Both the position numbers and the translations under genes were made by a program. From contig OX485806.1 of assembly GCA_950295325.1 (NCBI GenBank), positions 1,798,001 through 1,862,000 of the forward strand: a stretch of DNA of 64,000 nt. Reading direction: 5' to 3'. Below, in pieces: positions 49,618 through 64,000 of the stretch. The notes under the pieces are model-generated. The model made no database searches. It was not told the DNA's origin and saw only the letters and a program-made list of their open reading frames with translations. How positions within the stretch are numbered: the first letter of the stretch is position 1; the number at the start of each line of letters is the position of its first letter. Source of the DNA: Polytrichum commune (taxonomy: Eukaryota > Streptophyta > Polytrichopsida > Polytrichales > Polytrichaceae).

Positions 49618-50297
49618 ACTCCACACCATCGTGGCTCGCCAAGTCCCCGTTCCCAATGCCCAGAACCTGGAGAGTGGAGTCACTAATTTTTTGGGTTTCT
49701 TCCCTCATGGTAACTTAGCTTAGTTTGAACGCTGGCACACATGTCTCATCTTAAGACTCGAGATTTGCCTCACTTGACCTCGTCTTGAGAAATACACACT
49801 TTCTAAGGATACGTGTCTCCAAGTCACTTGAGGTCCATCCGTGCAATCTCAACCGTTGATAGTATAGAAGCTTCAACTTACCACTTCACAGGGTGTCCCA
49901 AGTCCTAAGTCTCGAGTTTGACCGTACTCTCAACCCAAGTAGGGTCTAGTTTTCTTGTAGGTGAGGCTTGGGAGATGTGTTTGAGTGTTGGGTCGATCAA
50001 AAAGCTAGACCCTACTCTCAACCCAAGTCTTCCAAATATTTTTGTCTTAAATAATCAAGATGCAACTCTAATGATAATTAACCATATTTTAATGGTTTCT
50101 TGAAGCTCATAAGTTGGGACTTGGTCTCCATGTTGGGACTTTCTAACATGAGTGGGACTTGGGACCCCATGTGAACCGGCTCTTAATGTAATGAGGGAGG
50201 GGAGGTTTCGGAGCTAGGTGGAGCCCAACTCCCCCAAGAAAATCTAGAAGCACTTACATTGGAGAGGCAAGTACCGGAAATAAGGACACAATATCTC
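49618..50297. other. Non-coding, no feature recognised
   Basis: The phrase CACATGTCTCATCTTAAGAC and the later CCATGTGAACCGGCTCTTAA hint at a decayed Tourist-like element, but the ends do not pair well enough to call one. Confidence 0.3.
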
Positions 50298-50299
50298 TA

Positions 50300-50597
50300 C
50301 ACAAAATATGATATTTAGTGTTTTATTAGATTTAGTGTTTTACCACCCTACTCTGCTCAACACTAATTTTCAATTCTTTGATAATTAGTGTTAGACATAA
50401 ATGTGCCGCCGCCGCCTTCCTTGTTGCCACCTCTTTCCTACTAAACACTAAATCCGTGCATGTAACTTTCACATATTACCATAGATGATATTTAGTGTTT
50501 GAGTTTACATATAATGTTACTTACTTTCATAGGGTTAGTGATATTTAGTGTAGTGTTCGTATTTAGTGTATCTAACACTAAATATCATATTTTGTGT
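50300..50597. mobile_element. TA-flanked MITE (copy 1), intact
   Basis: The 298-bp element has perfect inverted ends beginning CACAAAATATGATATTTAG (more than 20 bp), flanked by TA at 50298-50299 and 50598-50599. Inside are several copies of ATTTAGTGT in both orientations. A TA duplication suggests a Tc1/mariner-type source, but the ends do not match the usual plant Stowaway end. It shows the undisturbed form of the element that is split at 52.6 and 61.4 kb. Confidence 0.8.
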
Positions 50598-50726
50598 ACT
50601 TATCACAAGCTTAATTTAAGGGAGAAATTTATTCTTTCCTATTCCTTCTCTATGATTGGTTGCTAGGGTGTCGGACTCGAGACACGCACATGGTGCATAA
50701 TATTACTTAGTGTACAAGTCACGTTC

Positions 50727-50832: not shown

Positions 50833-52339
50833 TCACTTAGTAATGTTATGTGAGGGCATATAGTTATAAACAACAATGGCAAATCATTACTCTCTATGAA
50901 TGGATCTACTTGAAATCTAATATGAGGTGTCATTAGGTCCATCATAGATGAACCTAGCATAACACTTTGAAAACTCATAACTAATTCATATTATGTCTCA
51001 AAATATATTAAATTAAATTGGAGACTCAATTCCATCTTTTTGATTTATGGTAAATGTTTCTTGAAGAAATGTAAAATTCTCTAAATACTAAAATTTGCTC
51101 AATATGTACACTAAATATTATATTATTGGTCATATGGTATTTTATGTCACTGGTAACTTCCTAATGACATTTTCTATGAATAAGTCTACAAGTATTGTCA
51201 TGGAATAGTGAAATGTCAATTCAAAATTTATGTCAATTCTTGAAACAAAGTTTGGTATTTTGCATCCTAATAATTACGTAATGGAATCCCGGGGTGTGGA
51301 CTCTTCATTGGAAACCTAATTGACATGTATGGGTCACTATGAAATAAACCTCCCACATACGACAAGTTTATAGAGACAACAAAATGTATACGTACGAACG
51401 GTATGCTAGAAAAAATACTCATGTACTTATACTAAGCTTTTCAATTTAATGTGATGAATGCATTCCCTACATATACAAAAAAAAACTTCATGAATTAAAT
51501 AGACCTTGATTACTTACACAACCCACTTTCACTCTCCAGTTAGAAAGTCATTAAACATTTTTTCCTCCATAGCATTTAACTCAATAATTGCATCAAACAA
51601 ACAAAGGCAAGAGCACAATAACTTAACCACAATTCGAGAGGATAACTCAAGAGAGCACATGAGCGATCCAAGAGCCTTTAGTTTGTAAAACCTAGAATCC
51701 AAATGCAAACCTTAACAAGAATTGACAAGGTAGTCATTGAGGAAATTACCATATGACAATAACACATGACAACATGAATTGGATGAAACTGACACATCTA
51801 TTGTCAAATCTTGCTCAAACCCTTAGAGCCCGCTTTTGTACAATCACCTTTACTTCAAAATTCTTGATAGCCTCTCTAAATGTACACACTAAAGAAAAAC
51901 AATACATCTCCTTTATGTATACTATGTTCATTAATGCCTAAAATAAAACCCCTTCTTACACTCACATTAGTTCATACGTTGTATGAAGAGTCCACCCCCT
52001 CCATGGGAATGAGATATTGTCATGGATGATTATGTTTTGGATGAAAATCACTAACTAAGTGGCAATGACTGTAAATCAATGATGCCCTAAATTTTATATG
52101 AGAAGTGACAAATAATGTTAGGTTTACTTTTACTGTTGGTGACACTACATGGGTAATTTATGCTTTATATTGAGCAAGACAAATAAAATAGGTGACACTA
52201 AATACAATGTTTAGGATAGTTTTGTGTAGTACGTCAACATACCTTACTATGCTCAATAACATAGTGTCGCACATCTTTGTGAGTGAAGGTGCGTATTGGA
52301 TTTGATATGCTCAATTTGCAAACAGGGAGAGCCGTCCAC
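50833..52339. other. AT-rich non-coding stretch
   Basis: No gene seen. At 52100-52250 the phrases GGTGACACTAAATAC and GTTAGGTTTACTTTTAC recur in reverse near 62815-62860, so another dispersed repeat is present in both places. Confidence 0.35.
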
Positions 52340-52341
52340 TA

Positions 52342-52604
52342 CACTTAAATAGGATATTTAGTGTTTGATAATATTTAGTGTTGTTACCACCTTACCCTTC
52401 TCAACATTGATTTTCAATTCCTTGATAATTATTGTTAAACATAAATGTGCCGCTACCTTCCCTATTGCCACCTCCCTTATTATATCATTTTTTTATATCC
52501 CCACTAACACTAAATTCAAACATGTAACTTCCACATATTACCACAGTTGATATTTAGTGTTTGAATTTACATTTAATGTTGGGTTATAGATATTTAGTGT
52601 ATGT
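52342..52604. mobile_element. TA-flanked MITE (copy 2), left part, split by the 8.8-kb element
   Basis: It begins CACTTAAATAGGATATTTAG after TA and follows copy 1 in order (CCACCTTACCCTTCTCAAC, TTTTCAATTC, CATAAATGTGCCGC). It breaks off at ATGT 52601-52604. Its missing end is found at 61412-61425, beyond the large insertion. Confidence 0.75.
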
Positions 52605-53549
52605 GGGTGAAAGCACGCTACACTAGTACAAAAATGTTGTCACAACGTACATTTTCAGAGGAATGTTGCATTCAATTGGGTGTAGATTTCAAAGTAGCAT
52701 CTCTTTGAGGGATAAAAGATAATAATATGGTTGTAGATATAGATGAGCAATAACTCATCTAGTTTTTATCAAGAAACTCCTCATGGTTTGGCCGTGGTAA
52801 GTATATTTATATACCAGTGGTTTCCTGTCACACAGTATATTTTTGGGCCAAAAGTACTTCATTATGTGGGTTAAGGGTTGTATTTTTCTATGACTCTTTT
52901 GTGACATGTGTAATATATATCTATGAATCATATTTTGTAAAAAAATTCCTACATTTGCAGTCATCTCGCTGGTTAATGAAAGATAATGGGGTTTTTTTTG
53001 TACGTGCTTAAAACATAGGGTATCAAAACTTTTTTGGGTTTAGACACTTCTGCCCGTGCACATCATGGAGAACACTACGTGGGCTTCCTGCATTTTCGTG
53101 CCTCAAATGCTTTTTCCTTGCAGATATGCGAACTTAAAAATAAATGCCAACATGCAGGGTGCATATACTTTATATACTACCATAGTACTTTAACATACTC
53201 TGTCAAGGTCATTCGGCCAATGGTGGACGGCCGCGTGGCATCACCGATCCTGCTATATTCTTGGCAGTCCTGGCAATGCTATTGCCAGGCTAAGGCCAAG
53301 TCGGCTAAAAATGGATACCGCATGGGTCTAAGGGTTTCCATCTGGGACCGCGGTCTGTTTTGACGTTAGGGTTGACGGGTGGTGGCCGAATGCAGGAGTT
53401 ACAATGGGGATGTTGTTCTTTGTTAGGGTTTTCAAACTTTGATGCATGTGCCGCTCGAGATGGACTTGCGGTTTGCCGACCGATGTGTCTACTGGTTGCT
53501 GGTTTTGTAATCGACAACGGCGGATCCAGTGTGGCATCGTGCTTGCAAG

Positions 53550-56500
53550 ATGGGCAATTGTAGAGCTCAAGATCATCGTTGGGGTGTTAAACGGCCTGGA
53601 CCTGCCCAGAGAGCAAACTTAGGGTCAAGGGCTGAACCTACTGCTTCTCTTCTGTTGGCAAGGGAGAATGCTGCAGAACGCCAACGTCAATGTAGAGCAA
53701 GGAAGAGCCTTCTGAAACAAAAGTCAGATCAGTTGGCGTTATTGAGAGAGTGGGGATTTGGCGATCCCAGGTCGTCGTGATGTCCTTAGAGTATCTACCA
53801 AGATTTGTTCTCTCATTGTAGCTGAGTTGGAGTGCGACTGTGATGGGCCGCTATTTCGAAAGGCTGTTTTGGAATCCGTTCTCAGGAGCAATAGCATTGC
53901 TCCACACTTGCCGGAGTATTATAACTCTGAATTGGAGGCGAAGGCTACTCATTCATTTATTCAATCTTATAAGAAAGAGTTACAACTGTTGAAGAACCCA
54001 ACCTCCGCAGAGAAGTTAGTAAGGAAGACGACATTGCTAGAAGCCGCAGTGAGTAGCGACGTCCCTGGCGTCCGAGCCTTGTCCAGAGTGTTGGGGACAA
54101 GGCCTGGCAATATTTCCTCTGCCATTCATAGACGGCGGACACTAGCATCAAATGGATCCTCCATTTTCAAATTGCCTCAGAGGAGAAGGAGAGATGGTGT
54201 TCTCAGCGGGACTAGGGATCTTGTGATCGCTTGGTGGTCTTCAGAAACTCATGTGAGTCCCAATAAGAAAGATGTTACTAGAAAGAGGTTGGGGCCCAAA
54301 GTGTACGATGTTCACGCTACCCACCTTCTACTGGAAAGTCAGGTATGGTATATGAAGTTTTCTTCAAATTGGCGTTTTGAGTTCTCTCATAAATTTTTGA
54401 GCAGTTTTAATAAAACGTGTTGGGGTGTAAGGCTGTGCCCTGTTCCAGTTAGTACACATAGTTTCAAACGTACATGTACACAGAACTAATCGTTTTTTAG
54501 GGCTCCTGTTTACTTTGGCCTACATATTGTTTGTACATATTGTTTGATAGGAGGTATTGCTAAAACCTTGTCACACTCAATATTGTACGAGAACTACCTT
54601 CATAGTACTCTAATTCTGGTGTTTAGACATATCTCATATATGTTGGGTATACCTCATCTTAGTATACATTAGTATATGTCAGCCACATCTTAGTATACAC
54701 TAGTATAAATCAGCCTCATCTTGGTATACGTTAGTATATGTCAGCCTCGTCTAAGTATAAATTAGTATTTGTCAGCATCATCTTAGTATACATTAGTATA
54801 TGTCAGTATCTTCAGTAGTCCTTGCCTGAAGTACTTTGAGTATGAGTTACTAATACATAGTTGCATTGTAAGATTACTACAATATACTTTTGAAATCTCT
54901 AAGTATACACTATATACATTGGCTTTGTAATGTGTACTCCTCAAAAGTCCTTGGACTACTTTTGGGTTCTATATTTTTTCCCATATATCCCTTGCCAGTA
55001 CTCCATCTGTAGTATGTGGCAATACATATGTAGAGTACCAGTGACACAAATATATTGTGCAAGCTTCATTCTATGAGCGTTTTGTTCAGTCTCACCCAGA
55101 AGCTACAATTTCCATGCGTGCGTTCGAGTGCCTGAAGCCATTTTTTGTCAAAAAGTGTAAAGACCGAAATGTATGTTGCTGCAAGTACCATGTTGAGATA
55201 GACATGCTACGGGAGGCAGTCAACACAATGAGGGATGTTGTGAAGGGGGTACACTCTACCATTTCTTGTACTTGTTCATGTCAAGTGTGTTACAACTTAT
55301 CTGTTGATACTTGTTGTGCGCATTTGACCAAATGTGAGGGAGTTACTAAATTCTGGGAGCAGATTGTATGTCCAAAAGGGGAATCAGAGGAGTTCCATAA
55401 AATTGACTGTTTGATGGGTTCATGTCCCAATTGCGGTGCACATACTCTTCTGATGTGCCCTCTGGAGGTATCAACTCCAGCGCTCAATATGAAGTGGCGG
55501 TGTTTCAGCTACGAAGTGGTTGGAGTTAACGATGATGGGGAACCCAGAAAACGAATCAGAGAAGTCTTCATGGAAACCTCTTGTGTTGATTTTTTTGAAT
55601 ATTTGAAGCCAAAGTTGCAGGAGTTTGTTAGTCACAACTTCGTTGCAAGGTGGCAAGATGTCCAGTGTAGGGTTAGTATGAAAGAGTTACCTGCTGATGC
55701 TATCCTCTCCCATGTTGATTTTGCCGAAAACTATTCGTTTGAAATCCAAAATGAGATTCAGTCCATGCATTGGCATTCGTCTCAGATTACAATTCTTGTT
55801 CACATAACATACCGAATGGATGCATTGACTAATACCATTGTGAAGGAGAGTCACTTCTATGTGTCAGATGATAAGACACATGACACCTTATTTGTACAAC
55901 ATTGCTTCTTGCTGCACTGGGAGTGGTTGAAGGGTCAAGGTGTCAATGTGGCTCGTCATTGGGTTTGGAGTGATGGTTGTGCCGGGCAATTTAAAGGTTC
56001 AAGGCCCATGTATTTTGTTAGCCGATATCCGGGTCTTACTGGTGGGTGTGTTATGTCTTGGAATTTTTTTGGTACAGGCCATGGGAAAGGCGAGTGGGAT
56101 GGAGCAGGTGCTGTTGTGAAGCGAGCTTTGTGTACTGAGCAACTGCACAACCCCTGGCGGAAGCTACAAGATGCAAAAGATGCGGTTGACTTCTTGAAGG
56201 AGACTATGGAGGGCATCGTGGAAGGTTCGTTGGGTGGAAACAAAAGAGTGTCTTATAGGTACTTTCACCTTATTCAGCCAGATGATGTAGATCGTCGGCA
56301 CCTTCACGGGTGTGACACCATTGTCGGTTCTAGAAAATTGCACTCAATTCAAGGAGTGTCTATCTCGGATCCTACCTTGCTAATGGTAAGGCATTTGTCT
56401 TGCTTTTGTGTCCCATGCATGGAAGGTGATTGGGCAACTTGCGAGAAGACGGCCCATGTCCAGCCTTGGAGAGTTATTAAACTAGTTCCAACTGATGTAT

Positions 56501-56958
56501 CATTTGTAAGGGAGCGGATGATTTCAGCGCAGGCTGAAGATGGAGATGACGAGCCATGGGATTATGTCACAGACGAGACACTAGGGGACTTGGTCGACGT
56601 TGGCGATAATTTTGCAGTCCCAGCGATTGAAGCTAATGCAGAAGGGGTGGACTTCTACATTCTACAATGCTAGAGGAAAAAACAGATTGTACGCGAGAAG
56701 TTTACATGTATTTGGGGTGGGCAGTTTGAGGTTGGCGAATATGTCATTGCAGGAACCTACTATCAGAAATGGGGGAATAACCCTAATTCCTACGTGTACT
56801 TGAGGAATTCTAGAGTAGCTTATAACGATGCATCATTAGTGCTTGCATGCAGATTTCAGATGGTCCCAGCTGCCCATAGAATAAAGGGTGATGAGCCCGT
56901 TTACCAATTGTTAAGTGAGACAATTGATGTAATCACTACAAGCCTAGAGGCTCTATAA
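53550..56958 (+). pseudogene. Probable DDE-type transposase of the 8.8-kb element
   Basis: The first ATG (53550) opens MGNCRAQDHRWGVKRPGP. A basic segment (ENAAERQRQCRARKSLLK) follows that resembles a bZIP basic region. The frame shifts by one near 53770, then continues through a helix-turn-helix-like part (VRALSRVLGTRPGNISSAIH) to a donor CAG|GTATGG at 54342. After an intron of about 0.7 kb the second exon (about 55064) has FYERF, LKPFFVKKC, a Cys/His cluster (CCCKYH; CTCSCQVC) and conserved blocks VDFAENYSFEIQNE (Asp near 55717), SDGCAGQFKG (Asp near 55972) and GHGKGEWDGAGAVVK (Glu near 56092), a plausible D-85-D-40-E triad. A TAG at 56671 interrupts the frame, which stays protein-like to TAA 56956. 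Splice phases at the intron are ambiguous. Similar block orders occur in uncharacterised repeat-encoded proteins of animals, as I recall. Confidence 0.65.
54640..54815 (+). repeat. Minisatellite in the transposase intron, unit about 30 bp
   Basis: About five diverged copies of a unit with CATCTTAGTATACATTAGTA and TATGTCAGC. It lies within the presumed intron (54343 to about 55063) and does not touch coding sequence. Confidence 0.8.
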
Positions 56959-57254
56959 TATTATGGGGGAGTTTTTAAACTTCCCCCTTCGTTATATTTT
57001 GTGTGCATTTAAGACAGATGATGATGTTACTTTGGTAGGTTAAGTGCAAGGGTAATGTTTTGTGCCAAGCAATCGCATCTGATTTTTTGTGGGGAATTCA
57101 TGCTTGGACCATGTCTTGGGTCGTCTTCTGCTGTGAATCTTTTTCTCTGAAATGCCTTGTGGAGAATCTGTGTTTGGATTATACTACTATGTTAGTGAAT
57201 GTGTGATGTGTGACGTGTTTAGTGTGGGTGTAGGTTCACCTATTGGGTTGTGTA

Positions 57255-57578
57255 AGGTAGAGGGACCAGTAGTCGCCCACTTTTCATATTTGCCCACTTG
57301 GGACAGTGGTGGAAAAATTTTATAATCTTTGGATGGATTGCAAAGCTAGTGCAAAGCCATTCCAAAAAAATAATAATTTATGAGTAAGTTTATAATGGCC
57401 TATTAATTTTCTGAGTGTTCAGTCCTAGGGGGGCCACTAACCTATCAGAGTCTTGGTTAACATGAGCACTTGAATTTTGAAATGAGAACGTTTTTGCACC
57501 AATCAGAAGCACTCAAGTTTTGCAGACATGTACGGAAGACTATTGCCTGGACCTGGGCGACTACTGGTCCCTCTACCT
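57255..57578. mobile_element. TA-flanked MITE between the two genes
   Basis: The ends are perfect inverted copies over 25 bp, beginning AGGTAGAGGGACCAGTAG, with TA on each side (57253-57254 and 57579-57580). Length is 324 bp with no gene. It is a later insertion into the larger element, between the convergent genes where harm is least. A short phrase GTTAAGTGCAAGGG occurs on both sides (57048 and 57643), a separate local duplication. Confidence 0.82.
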
Positions 57579-57989
57579 TAAACCTTTTGCTTTGGATTGC
57601 ACTTCTTTATGACAGGCAATAATGTTAATGTATTAGGTTAAGTGCAAGGGCCATTTGTATTTGAGAAGCAGATAATCTAGCCACATCAAATGGCACCTTG
57701 TTTCAACTCATGGGAATACTTGTGGTCAACTCATGGGCTAAGAGTTAGAGGTAACTGTGGGTTACTAGCAGCTCATGCAGAAAATAATTAACTATAAGTA
57801 ACAAAGTAAACAAATTAGCACTTGGTTAGCTAGCAACCCAAGTAATTTAATTAAAGTTTGTTCAGTTAGGGTGATACTGAAATGAGGTAATCTAAATCAT
57901 TTGAACTGCTGAAATCCAAAAAGACAGCTTCAATATTAAGTCTGTCAAATTCAAACAGATCATATCAAAACTTTGGAATACATGATATT

Positions 57990-60747
57990 CTACTTCTTCT
58001 TCTTCTTTGTTTTCTTCGACCCACTTCCCATGACCTCCAACGTTTCCGAAGGCCCATCTACTCGGGTCCTAACCTTCTCAAATTTTGTTTTGTTCCTTGT
58101 GGTTCTAGAGGTAGGGTTGCCACTATTGTCAACACTCGGTACACTCCTATTCTTCAGTGAGGCTACTATGGTCTTAGGATGCTCTTCCTCAAATGTTGGT
58201 GGTCTACGTACTACTCCCTTACTCATTTGTTGATTGGTGAGCTCAACAATTGTGGCCTTCAATTTGGCCACCTCATCATCCTTGGACAGTTCAGCTTGTT
58301 GGGTGTCAGCTGGACGTTCAATTTCTGGATCCTTCCCCAAAGCACTGTCATTGACCTCGTCTTGCTCGGGCTCATCGTGAGCACTTGAATCCTGAGATCC
58401 GTGTTCTTGGTTTAAACCCGGGCTGCTCACAGTTGTGTCGCGAACAACCTGCACATACCATAAACCCCATCCTTTTATCAACAATGTGTAGTGGACAACT
58501 TATACTACATAAATCCATGCATGTTGGTAATTGCAAGTAAGATAAGGATCAGAGGTGAATCACCTCTGAAGGGGTCGCTCCAGTTGTTACAAGCGGAGCA
58601 GCTGGTGTCTTGTTAATCCCTAGAACCAAATTCGTGAATAACGACTTCGAAGGCGACTTTGACGGCGACTTCGGAGGCGTAGTTACTCCAAGTTTGGCAG
58701 ATGTAACTCGAGAAGGCGGCGTTTCCGAACCCTTTGACCTACTTGGTGGAGCCTGTGCTCCCAAGCTGTACGTCCCTGTGCACACTGAGGCCTGACCAAG
58801 GGGTGGCTGTTGAGAGGACCCTGCAAAACAAAATACCCGAAAAAATTCACCAACAAAACACCACTTGACCAGAATCAGAAAAGTACCATATTACACTTCC
58901 AAGTACATGTAAATACAGAGAGTGGGTGGATGTACCTCTAATTAGGGACTACATGTACACTTATATACTCCACCAAGTCTATAAAACACTACAAGATGGC
59001 AGTGAATGGTGTAATAACATAGTCTAACAATATTTTATGAGTGTAACACGTATACAGAGTATGTGTAAATACTTTTGAGAATCCAAAGCATACTGGCAAA
59101 CTACTATTGATCTGTATGTTAATAGACAGAGTAGTACATTAAAAATGTACTAAGTGTACTAAATGAAAGTGTAACTAGTGTACTATGTTAAAGCCTTATA
59201 AACACTTCAATATACTACAAGTCCCATAGCCTGTGTACTACAAGTATATGAACATACATTACATATCAGACCCTAAACCCAAACTTGACATTGTGTACAT
59301 CAAATGACAAACAAAAACAACATGCTCAAGTGGATGGGGCATACCAATGTCTGCACTAGTACGCTTGGCAGCAGCAGATCTTTCTGCAAGAGCCAGCTTT
59401 CTTTGGAGGTCGCAATCCAGGGCATCAACCTTCTCTTCAAGACTAATTGGAAGTTCCCCAAAGCCAAAACTTTTGAACCAGTCTGGGTGAACTACTATAC
59501 AAGATTTTTCTACACATTTAACTGATGTACTAAACCAGGACACAACACACCATGGGTGGTAGACATGCCGACAGCTACACACTAGAATGTCATTGTAAGC
59601 AAATGGGCAATCACACAAAACACAATTTGTTAATTTTATAGAATCACTATCTGCAAGCTCAATCTCAAGTGAGTTGCACATGGGGTGGGGGTGCAAAGCC
59701 AAACCAGGCCGTCCACTTCGCAAATTGGATAATTGCTTGGCCAGCAAGGATTGCTGACTTACGAGGAATGCCTCCCTCCGCACCAACTTCTCATGCAGAG
59801 TAGATTGGAGGCCCTAGTCAGCAACAATGGCCTTGTACTCACCCTCGGTCTTCTTCAGAGTAGCCTCCTAGAAGTCAAGGGTCATCTTCATCATCGGCAA
59901 CTCTTGCAGCTCCGAACATTCCTCAACCTTCCTTTTGTACTCCTTGCACGTCGCGTCCATGGAGAGCAGCATTATCCGGACGCCCTCCACCTTAGAGTCT
60001 AGCCGCTGAACCTCCTTCACAACAGATTGAATGTCAATCTTCACAGCCTGCAGCTCTGCCTCAACCAAGCGTTGAAGGTCATGGCTCTCCCGTTTTTTTC
60101 TCTCGATCCATGACGAGCTTTGTCCACCAAAACCTGAACCCACCCCTCCGCATGGCAGCTCGCCAGGCTCCCCTTTCACAACCACATCACCCTGCATCAG
60201 GGTATCCATATCCTCTTCCTCAAGAACCTCACTGAAATTCCTGTCAGTGAGTGAAGCTTTCAGCTCCAAGGCGGCCTTCATTTTTTTTTTGCCATGCGCT
60301 ACGCTGGTTTCGATTAGTTATGTGGGCAAAAGATGCCCTGTCAACATCTAAACCCTTCACTACATCAGCGACAATACCAATTGCAAATTCTTTACCTATG
60401 AGCTTAGTTTTGATTAGAGAGGGTTTATGGTAGACTATAGGGTACAGTCTAGCTATGGCAGACTTGACCTTTGTATCCTTTACATCCCCAAACCAAAACC
60501 CTGACTTTGCTCTCTGTGGCCCAAACACGGCAGTGAGATCACTCTGGAGGATCTCTGTAGTGTCCCTAGATTTATGAGGATCGATACCTGTCCCATTCAA
60601 CCCATAACTATCCCTGAAGTCCTCAAAAGACAGTGCAGGAGGAGGTGCACCTCTACGCAGCGTCAAAATCTTATCATCTACATCGTCCACAGTGAGAGGC
60701 TCATCCTCATCAGGATCAGCATCTTGTTTTTTTTCTTTCTTCCCCAT
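57990..60747 (-). pseudogene. Accessory coiled-coil/RING-H2 protein of the 8.8-kb element, three exons
   Basis: The ATG at 60747 opens MGKKEKKQDADPDEDEPL. The introns are 59344-58821 (ATTG|GTATGC to TTTTGCAG) and 58563-58449 (GAG|GTGATT to TGTGCAG); phases fit, giving about 700 residues. Residues 1-155 form an acidic then globular part. A coiled-coil region follows (LQRLVEAELQAVKIDIQSVV). A RING-H2-like zinc motif is next (CVLC..CRHVYHPWC..CVEKSC), then a Ser/Pro/Lys linker, and the protein ends SKKTKKKKK. Disruptions in this copy: a one-base shift in a run of ten A (plus 60281-60290) and two TAG codons (59868-59870, 59814-59816). A role as end-binding or ubiquitin-related helper of transposition is a guess from position only. 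Confidence 0.65.
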
Positions 60748-61000
60748 CCCTAAACCCTAAACCCCCAAAAAGACCAAAACCTGCTTGAGTTTGCGATCAA
60801 CCTGCTTGAGTGTGCAATCACTAATGCAATGCTAAAGGGTTAAGGGTTTGAGTTTGCGATCACACAGGCTAAACCCTAACATGCTACGGATTGAGTTCGG
60901 CAACATTTGAGAGTTTGCGATCACACCCTAAACCCCAACCGGTGACAGATTTGAGATGGAGTGATTAGTTTGATGAGTGAGGCTCCAAAACCCAAAACCC
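60748..61000 (-). promoter_or_regulatory. Telo-box-rich promoter/leader of the RING gene
   Basis: Several CCCTAAACCC-type motifs lie just upstream of the ATG, at about 60751, 60870 and 60925. AAACCCTA telo-boxes are common in plant promoters of growth-expressed genes. They are not arranged as a telomeric array. Confidence 0.4.
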
Positions 61001-61411
61001 TACCTAAACTCCAGAAAGTAGTCCACATTCCCTAAACCGCAACAACAAAAACATAAGCCCTGCCTAACAAACGCTCCGCCTCACAGACCAAAGTGCAATC
61101 AACAAACTAAAAGCGTAAGAATCGGAGAGAGGCCCCTCTACCCCAATCCGCCCAAGTCGCAAGAGGGAGAAAATAGAAACCCCTAACTCCCGCAAGCCCA
61201 CCCCCGAAACCCTCCACGTCTAAAGTAAAGTCCTTAACCAGACTGTCGAATCCCTAAAAAGCCCTGCAATCAACGGCCGAGATTAACCTGGCAAAGAGAA
61301 TCGACGGTGAGGCTTGTTTTAGAAATCTCAGGGCATTGTTCTAAATGATGTACTTAACATACTTAGATTTTTGCCCAAAGTGTACCACCCCTAGCGTGCT
61401 TCTACCCATGT

Positions 61412-61425
61412 GTTCATATTTAGTG
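61412..61425. mobile_element. TA-flanked MITE (copy 2), right end
   Basis: GTTCATATTTAGTG followed by TA matches the GTTCGTATTTAGTGTA part of copy 1 and completes the element interrupted at 52604. Confidence 0.65.
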
Positions 61426-61437
61426 TAGCTACAAATG

Positions 61438-62509: not shown

Positions 62510-64000
62510 GCATGAGACTCTACTAGGTAGATGGTACATGTGACGTTCATATCAAAATTGAGTGAGATGATGACTGATTTTATTTATGAAGTTGATGACT
62601 GTATATAAAAGGTCCAATCATCCAAATGTGTTCATTGACTTTGTGTTAGCAATGTTGCTTCATGAATGCTTCATAAAGCAAGGTTGCAAATCCCACTTTA
62701 TAACTCATCTTGAAAGAAGAAGAATCACAACTTTGCCATGGACTCCACTACATACTGTATTTAGTGCCACCAAATCTATGTGTTTTGCTTAATACGAATT
62801 GTAAACAACCCATGGAGTGTCACCAACACTAAATGTAAACCTAACATTATTTGTTATTCCTTGTTAAAAGAGTTGGTCATTATCTATTTACAATGTTGCA
62901 ACTATTTTCACTTACTAAGTGAATTTTCATTCATATTTCAATCATCCATGACAATATTTCAGTACATGCATGTTAGGATGCAAATATACCAAATGTTATT
63001 TCAATAATTGGCAATGATTTCCTCCATGACAATACTTGTAAACTTACGTCGTAAGATGTGTCACTAGAAAAGTCACCACATTGACATAAATACCACATGA
63101 CACTAAATGCAACATCTAGTTTAGTAAGACAAAGCATTAAGAAACAGAAATATTAAAAAAATAATTAGGGTCTCATCCCAAAGTATACATTACACTCTAG
63201 TTTTGGAACACGGCCCCTGCCCCCTCCCGAACATAAATAGAGTCAAAGTTTCATTAATACCAGCTATGAGGTACACATTCATTCTCTTCACATAATAAAG
63301 TGCCTTTCAAAGCCTTGGATTAATCCCTAAGGTTTGTAAAACTATTTGCAAACATCACGTGAAGGAACATGTTATGGTATGTGGGCCTTAATATGAAGTC
63401 ACTCCTCTTTAAGGGACACTAACATTTAAGTGATATACAAATTATATACCAAAAATGACATATGTCATAATGGAGTGTGTGCTTGACACATAGACATTCT
63501 CTTAGATGCAACATTTAACACATTCGGATAGACCTATGTCATCAGTAAAAGAGAGTGAGATTCTTCACTATGGCATTTCAAATTTGGTTGTGAAATTTGA
63601 AACGACAATCTTCATGACTCGCAATTGCTAACATGGCAAGACACTTCTTAGTTTAAAGCAACAATTGACTTTTTATGTGGAGTTGGAAATGCCCACAATA
63701 AGACCATATACTTTATGTTCATATACTTTTAGTACGTTCATGCTAATTATGTATCCGTTCTTTATATTAGATGATACAAAATATTTATCAAACCCCTAGC
63801 AAGTAACTTCACATGTCCAAGTATCATGAAGAATAAGTAATTTTGCAAAACAACAAGCTCTCATTAGTATCTATAAGAAGTTCAAATCGGACTTTCATCG
63901 TGTGTAAGGGTTATGCGATGAAAATTCAAAACATGGAGGAGCCTCGATCTCACATGTGTTGAGCAATGCTTTATACTCTCAATTAAAGCCGATACTCATC
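61500..64000. other. AT-rich non-coding stretch, no gene supported
   Basis: No domain-bearing frame was found. Short ATTTAGTG/CACTAAAT phrases near 62760, 62830 and 63100 suggest decayed members of the TA-flanked MITE family or a related repeat. Confidence 0.4.
62439..62507. repeat. (GA)n microsatellite, 69 bp
   Basis: An uninterrupted GA dinucleotide repeat. The open frame across it (Arg-Glu repeats) is an artefact. Confidence 0.95.

Follow-up and report, generated by a model that had tools for sequence, protein, structure and literature searches.

We report a complete, multi-copy DNA transposon of 8803 bp at positions 52605–61407 of a 64,000-nucleotide stretch of the moss Polytrichum commune (assembly GCA_950295325.1, contig OX485806.1, positions 1,798,001 to 1,862,000 of the forward strand), which we refer to as the window and to which all unlabelled coordinates below belong. 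The element carries a gene for a putative transposase with three conserved aspartates (DDD) on the plus strand and, convergent with it, a second gene (gene 2) for a protein with a coiled coil and a RING-like finger. Very probably it belongs to a lineage of cut-and-paste DNA transposons which keeps both proteins, because the ends are fixed, six dispersed copies are present, insertions are bordered by 4-bp duplications, purifying selection is seen, and the same layout recurs in two further families.

The first 16 bases of the element (52605–52620, plus strand) and its last 16 (61392–61407, minus strand) form the 5′ and 3′ terminal inverted repeats (TIRs); both match GGGTRRAAGCACGCTA with no mismatches, the two ends agree with each other at 14 of 16 bases, and ATGT adjoins them on both sides as a target-site duplication (52601–52604 and 61408–61411). 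Searching the 408-Mb genome with the 16-bp end pattern gave 12 matches, six forward and six reverse, which resolve into six facing pairs, and the same pattern read backwards as a control gave none. Five pairs span 8.5–10.5 kb and one spans 31 kb; four of the six copies measure 8.5–8.8 kb and the two longer ones carry inserts. Each pair is bordered by an exact 4-bp duplication (ATAA, ATGT, ATGT, AAGT, TTAT, ATTC), none of the six by a longer one (checked up to 8 bp), and since a single 4-bp match is expected about once in 256 at even base composition, six of six are not chance. The original prediction, made from the letters of the window, had proposed an 8.8-kb two-gene DNA transposon here with matching 16-bp ends and ATGT flanks, and suggested looking for other copies with the same ends and comparing their duplication lengths; the six facing pairs and their duplications bear it out on both counts.

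The same prediction took the two flanks to rebuild an empty paralogous site, a miniature inverted-repeat transposable element (MITE) into which the transposon had jumped, and this part stood chiefly on the left. The left flank from 52339 (52339–52604, plus strand) aligns with a MITE relative at ~50297–50574 and represents the left part of the interrupted MITE. On the right the alignment extends for only 20 bp (61412–61431, plus strand), broken at the junction by a gap of one base; the last 25-bp inverted repeat of the relative (near 50297–50598) was not found in the right flank. For the borders, the six copies are better evidence than the MITE.

The transposase gene consists of two exons. Exon A (53550–54342, plus strand), a putative DNA-binding part, was delimited by tblastn across the copies, a conserved Met and a GT donor, and exon B (55063–56958, plus strand) holds the DDD core and Cys clusters. 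The intron between them (54343–55062) has its GT donor in all five copies shown and its AG acceptor in four of six, and a 31-bp tandem repeat lies within it at 54621–54813. Numbered in the 55045–56673 frame, the conserved aspartates are Asp225, which follows a hydrophobic stretch and is kept in 67 of 68 transposase relatives, Asp310 within WSDG (68 of 68) and Asp352 within HGKGxxDG (68 of 68); several Cys clusters are conserved alongside them. We infer that the three may form the triad of an RNase H-like enzyme, a putative DDD transposase.

Gene 2 lies on the minus strand. Its first exon (59345–60747) is open to the end in three of six copies (C3, C5 and C6), and in the C3 copy its open frame takes in an N-terminal domain, a coiled coil and a RING-like finger (59514–59627 in the window). 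The finger matches zf-RING_2 weakly (E 1.6e-4; 22.3 bits, under the Pfam curated cut-off of 27.3), and its PDB matches are RNF38 and other RING-H2 ligases (best E 0.0069). Two later exons, at 58564–58820 and, with a basic C-terminus, at 57990–58448, are predicted from a GT-AG reading and tblastn across the copies. The pairing proposed at the outset, a DDE-like enzyme with a RING/coiled-coil protein, is supported, with a weak RING match; of the proposed two convergent multi-exon genes, the transposase gene has its donor and acceptor, and for gene 2 the later exons remain predictions. Between the two genes sits a nested 324-bp MITE-like stretch (57255–57578) that is bordered by TA at either end and has inverted repeats of ~25 bp.

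Two subfamilies can be told apart among the six copies: A comprises the window copy, C4:33.04 Mb and C5, which are 98–99% identical in aligned parts; B comprises C3, C4:34.11 Mb and C6, which share ~82% identity with the window copy over the first 4.4 kb and 73–88% in other aligned parts. Subfamily A copies align through the MITE-like stretch, which is absent from B copies. C4:33.04 Mb carries an insert of ~1.7 kb near its 3′ end, and exon A of C5 holds a large one. Exon B has no stop in three of six copies (C3, C5, C6), has one stop each in the window copy and C4:34.11 Mb, and is frame-shifted in C4:33.04 Mb; in addition, the exon A frame is broken in C5, and the intron acceptor of C6 has no AG. 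The copy in the window is a damaged member in which both genes are broken: the transposase frame is interrupted in exon A near 53740–53780, its acceptor has lost the AG and a stop lies in frame at 56671–56673; the gene 2 frame is broken near 60285 and contains additional stops.

Between subfamilies, the ratio of nonsynonymous to synonymous substitution rates (dN/dS) was 0.17–0.20 for exon B, 0.28–0.31 for exon A and 0.14–0.17 for the RING part of gene 2, each from five of the six copies with one disrupted copy left out (for exon B, the frame-shifted one), and 0.08–0.10 for the N part of gene 2, from all six. Such ratios show that both predicted proteins have been under purifying selection between the subfamilies.

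The wider genome holds many related elements. A transposase search returned at least 88 matching stretches, a lower bound as are the other counts, some stretches being pieces of one copy; six are the window family and the rest share 35–56% identity with it. Two further families, F2 and F4, are 44–45% identical to the window family in the transposase and share its GGG...GCA ends and 4-bp duplications. The F2 ends read GGGAGGAAGCATCC... and GGGTGTAAGCATCC..., the F4 ends GGGTGAATGCATGG... and GGGTAGATGCATGG..., and TIRs are 16–17 bp long across the families read. The F2 ends occur at 27 places in the genome (control, none), of which nine facing pairs, 13.8–28.3 kb in span, all enclose a transposase match, and six of the nine unpaired ends lie within 15 kb of one; the comparison drew on 15 of the 88 places that match the transposase. 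All nine F2-group pairs show a 4-bp duplication (GCTG, CGGA, GTAC, GTAT, TTGG, ATAA, CATG, CTCT, AATT), as does the one F4 copy read at both ends (AGGA), the other F4 copy being seen at its 5′ end only. All 16 insertions whose two ends were read have a duplication of 4 bp, and none has one of 5: six of the window family, nine of F2 and one of F4.

Two groups of loci are nearly or wholly identical. The F2 loci L039, L040, L041, L042 and L045 share 99.4–99.8% identity over 4.6 kb, which probably reflects a recent burst of a recently active family. The F1 loci L026 and L027 (C1:24065823+ and C1:24143898−) lie 78 kb from each other, face opposite ways and share 100% identity over 4629 bp, as either very recent copying or an inverted duplication would produce.

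Gene 2 also recurs outside the window family. When the C3 gene 2 protein was compared by tblastn with the F2a, F2b, F4a and F4b stretches, F4b matched at E 2.9e-16 (22% identity), F2a matched in the RING part at E 2.6e-13 (35%) and in two N parts at 2.4e-9 and 3.9e-7 (29–30%), and F2b matched in the RING part and one N part. With low-complexity sequence masked, the N and RING blocks keep E values of 9.9e-12 to 2.9e-7. In F2a, F2b and F4b the homologue lies on the opposite strand, between the transposase and the 3′ end, as it does in the window. On the dN/dS ratios and these homologues, we rejected a random open frame. Because dN/dS is low and the homologue keeps its place and orientation in two other families, the RING/coiled-coil protein is thus a conserved part of the lineage, across three diverged families, and very probably not a passenger. 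The F2a stretch (L047, L039, L048), an F2 element of 13.8 kb, exceeds the window element in its number of minus-strand frames: one of them holds a second copy of the gene 2 N domain together with an acidic repeat, and another has a RING-like motif of its own.

Beyond this genome, the transposase has 216 relatives at E ≤ 1e-3 and 282 by profile; among the 120 listed per search, those with a species name come from Ceratodon purpureus (moss), Klebsormidium nitens (alga) and Cryptomeria japonica (conifer). In a tree of 63 proteins the window transposase groups with P0001 and P0002 (92% and 83% identity; support 100/98 and 100/100). One relative, P0121 of K. nitens (1180 amino acids), joins leucine-rich repeats to a transposase-like part, through either the fusion of two genes or an artefact of gene prediction. 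Outside the genome, the N part of gene 2 resembled only eight environmental fragments (57–84% identity), none of them a named host gene. Pfam returned no family for the exons of the window transposase (E up to 1) or for its main exon (E up to 10), the sole match for exon A was at E 0.066, and the 68 members gave 20 weak, scattered families (best DUF6597, in 4 of 68, at 2.4e-4), which we take as chance. PDB searches with the transposase and with its profile gave one match each (E 3.3 and 0.66), likewise taken as chance. Scans of viral and prokaryotic contigs gave 3, 12, 13 and 59 pattern matches, none a relative by tblastn; a viral origin was rejected, as no viral relative appeared in these scans.

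We propose that the protein of exons A and B, a putative RNase H-fold DDD transposase, would recognise the ends starting with GGG, excise the element and insert it into the target with a stagger of 4 bases. The gene 2 protein would act with it, most likely as a subunit interacting with the ends or the host, or as a regulator of the ubiquitin-ligase type; its N domain perhaps binds ends or host factors, and its RING-like finger may recruit ubiquitin transfer. By analogy, gene 2 most likely works alongside the transposase as in the two-protein PIF/Harbinger elements. Should the RING partner be required, the lineage would be an example, open to testing, of a transposon that steers its own proteins or those of the host through a ubiquitin-ligase-like subunit, and the near-identity among copies brings a transposition assay within reach.

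Several observations weigh against a lineage of cut-and-paste transposons keeping two proteins. The fold and activity of the putative transposase are read from its sequence, and Pfam and PDB tie it to no named superfamily. The Sola1 element described from Salpingoeca has a single gene (PMC6875170). For gene 2, identity between families is low (22–35%), and no match was listed in F4a, which departs from F4b before that place. Within subfamilies, dN/dS in both genes ranges from 0.11 to 1.88 or is undefined, with few changes each, and nothing firm about decay follows from these ratios.

The lineage has at least 88 matching stretches in one genome and, through its relatives, reaches an alga, a moss and a conifer, yet no Pfam model recognises the transposase of the window; its placement has to be weighed against the known superfamilies. 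No transposase model of hAT, MULE, CACTA, PIF/Harbinger or Tc1/mariner was among the 20 Pfam families found for the 68 members; a MURB-like model (Zea_mays_MuDR) appeared once among them, at E 0.13. PIF/Harbinger and Pong are two-protein elements whose second protein acts with the transposase, as may be the case here, but that partner is Myb-like and the duplications are 3 bp, whereas the window lineage has 4-bp duplications and a RING/coiled-coil partner, and the window transposase has no Pfam match. Ginger elements make duplications of ~4 bp, a similar length, but their Gypsy-type integrase core was not matched in the window transposase by Pfam. The large KDZ (Kyakuja-Dileera-Zisupton) elements have Cys clusters near the transposase, a likeness to ours, and Zisupton makes 8-bp duplications; the KDZ transposase was not matched in Pfam, and CxC7 appeared in 1 of 68 members at E 0.11 only. 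The TTAA duplication of piggyBac was found at none of the 16 insertions. The placement outside the common plant superfamilies that had been proposed for the element holds as far as tested, with no Pfam family for the window transposase and a different duplication length. The interpretation first offered is supported in part: the new superfamily that it made conditional on the element not being Sola or the like is one of the readings weighed below. Animal proteins with an HGKG..DG motif may be classed as Sola, which counts as no more than a lead.

Of the known superfamilies, Sola offers the closest fit. According to two accounts (PMC10741241, PMC9033089), Sola has a DDD transposase and 4-bp duplications, is known from Physcomitrella, mostly measures 2–9 kb and sometimes over 15 kb, and has TIRs of 11–1124 bp. 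As far as these accounts go, the window lineage is alike in its 4-bp duplications (16 of 16), short TIRs (16–17 bp) and moss occurrence; its sizes (8.5–8.8 kb in four of six window-family copies, 13.8–28.3 kb in F2 pairs) fall within the Sola range, and its three conserved aspartates would correspond to the Sola DDD if their catalytic role is as predicted. The likeness is drawn from described features, not from Sola protein sequences. Some Sola2 elements, as in Dictyostelium, are reported to make AT-rich AWWT duplications (PMC3627910), unlike the insertions here, of which 1 of 16 fits that pattern (AATT). On balance we lean towards direct membership of the lineage in the Sola superfamily. We file it as Sola-like, perhaps Sola itself and perhaps a neighbour, with a conserved partner apparently undescribed in the open-licence literature searched.

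A narrower reading, to which we give serious weight but somewhat less than even, is that the element is an ordinary Sola, most likely Sola1, with close kin, perhaps including a second gene, already in Repbase. The agreement in duplications, DDD, size and TIR range and moss occurrence favours this as far as the sources describe Sola, as do relatives in the moss Ceratodon. Against it, the Salpingoeca Sola1 is described as a single-gene element (PMC6875170) and the accessory gene of the Ectocarpus Sola1 is of another kind, encoding a ParB/methyltransferase protein (PMC12477816); the likeness is by description and not by sequence; and a conserved RING/coiled-coil partner, a feature of the window lineage, was not found described for Sola in the open-licence literature searched.

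Distinctly less likely is a new superfamily outside Sola that has a transposase and a partner protein of its own: it would be an unnamed superfamily of green plants, spanning alga, moss and conifer, whose elements have GGG...GCA ends, duplications of 4 bp, a DDD transposase distinct from the named ones and a co-evolving RING-type partner. The lack of any Pfam, PDB, viral or prokaryotic relative in our searches would fit, as would the ends and gene pair common to three families, but every feature compared overlaps with Sola as far as the sources describe it, and having no Pfam model does not mean being absent from Repbase. Were this reading true, a transposon would have its own ubiquitin-ligase-like subunit as core machinery.

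Returning to a conserved two-protein lineage, gene 2 could also be a captured host gene or a passenger without a role in transposition, which we consider improbable: RING fingers are common host domains, and F2a has its further minus-strand frames, one of them RING-like, but gene 2 has dN/dS between subfamilies as low as or below that of the transposase, keeps its place and orientation in families 44–45% identical in the transposase, and has no named host gene among its eight outside relatives. Large transposons are reported to carry accessory genes (PMC12477816), which speaks for capture. A chance inverted repeat or an assembly artefact is scarcely credible, for although 0.85 three-mismatch 16-mer matches are expected in the window, the six facing exact pairs, the empty control and duplications at all six refute it.

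In the distant flanks of the element, a 145-nt inverted repeat (52070–52214 and 62748–62892) is 76% complementary between its arms, which are perhaps two copies of another repeat.

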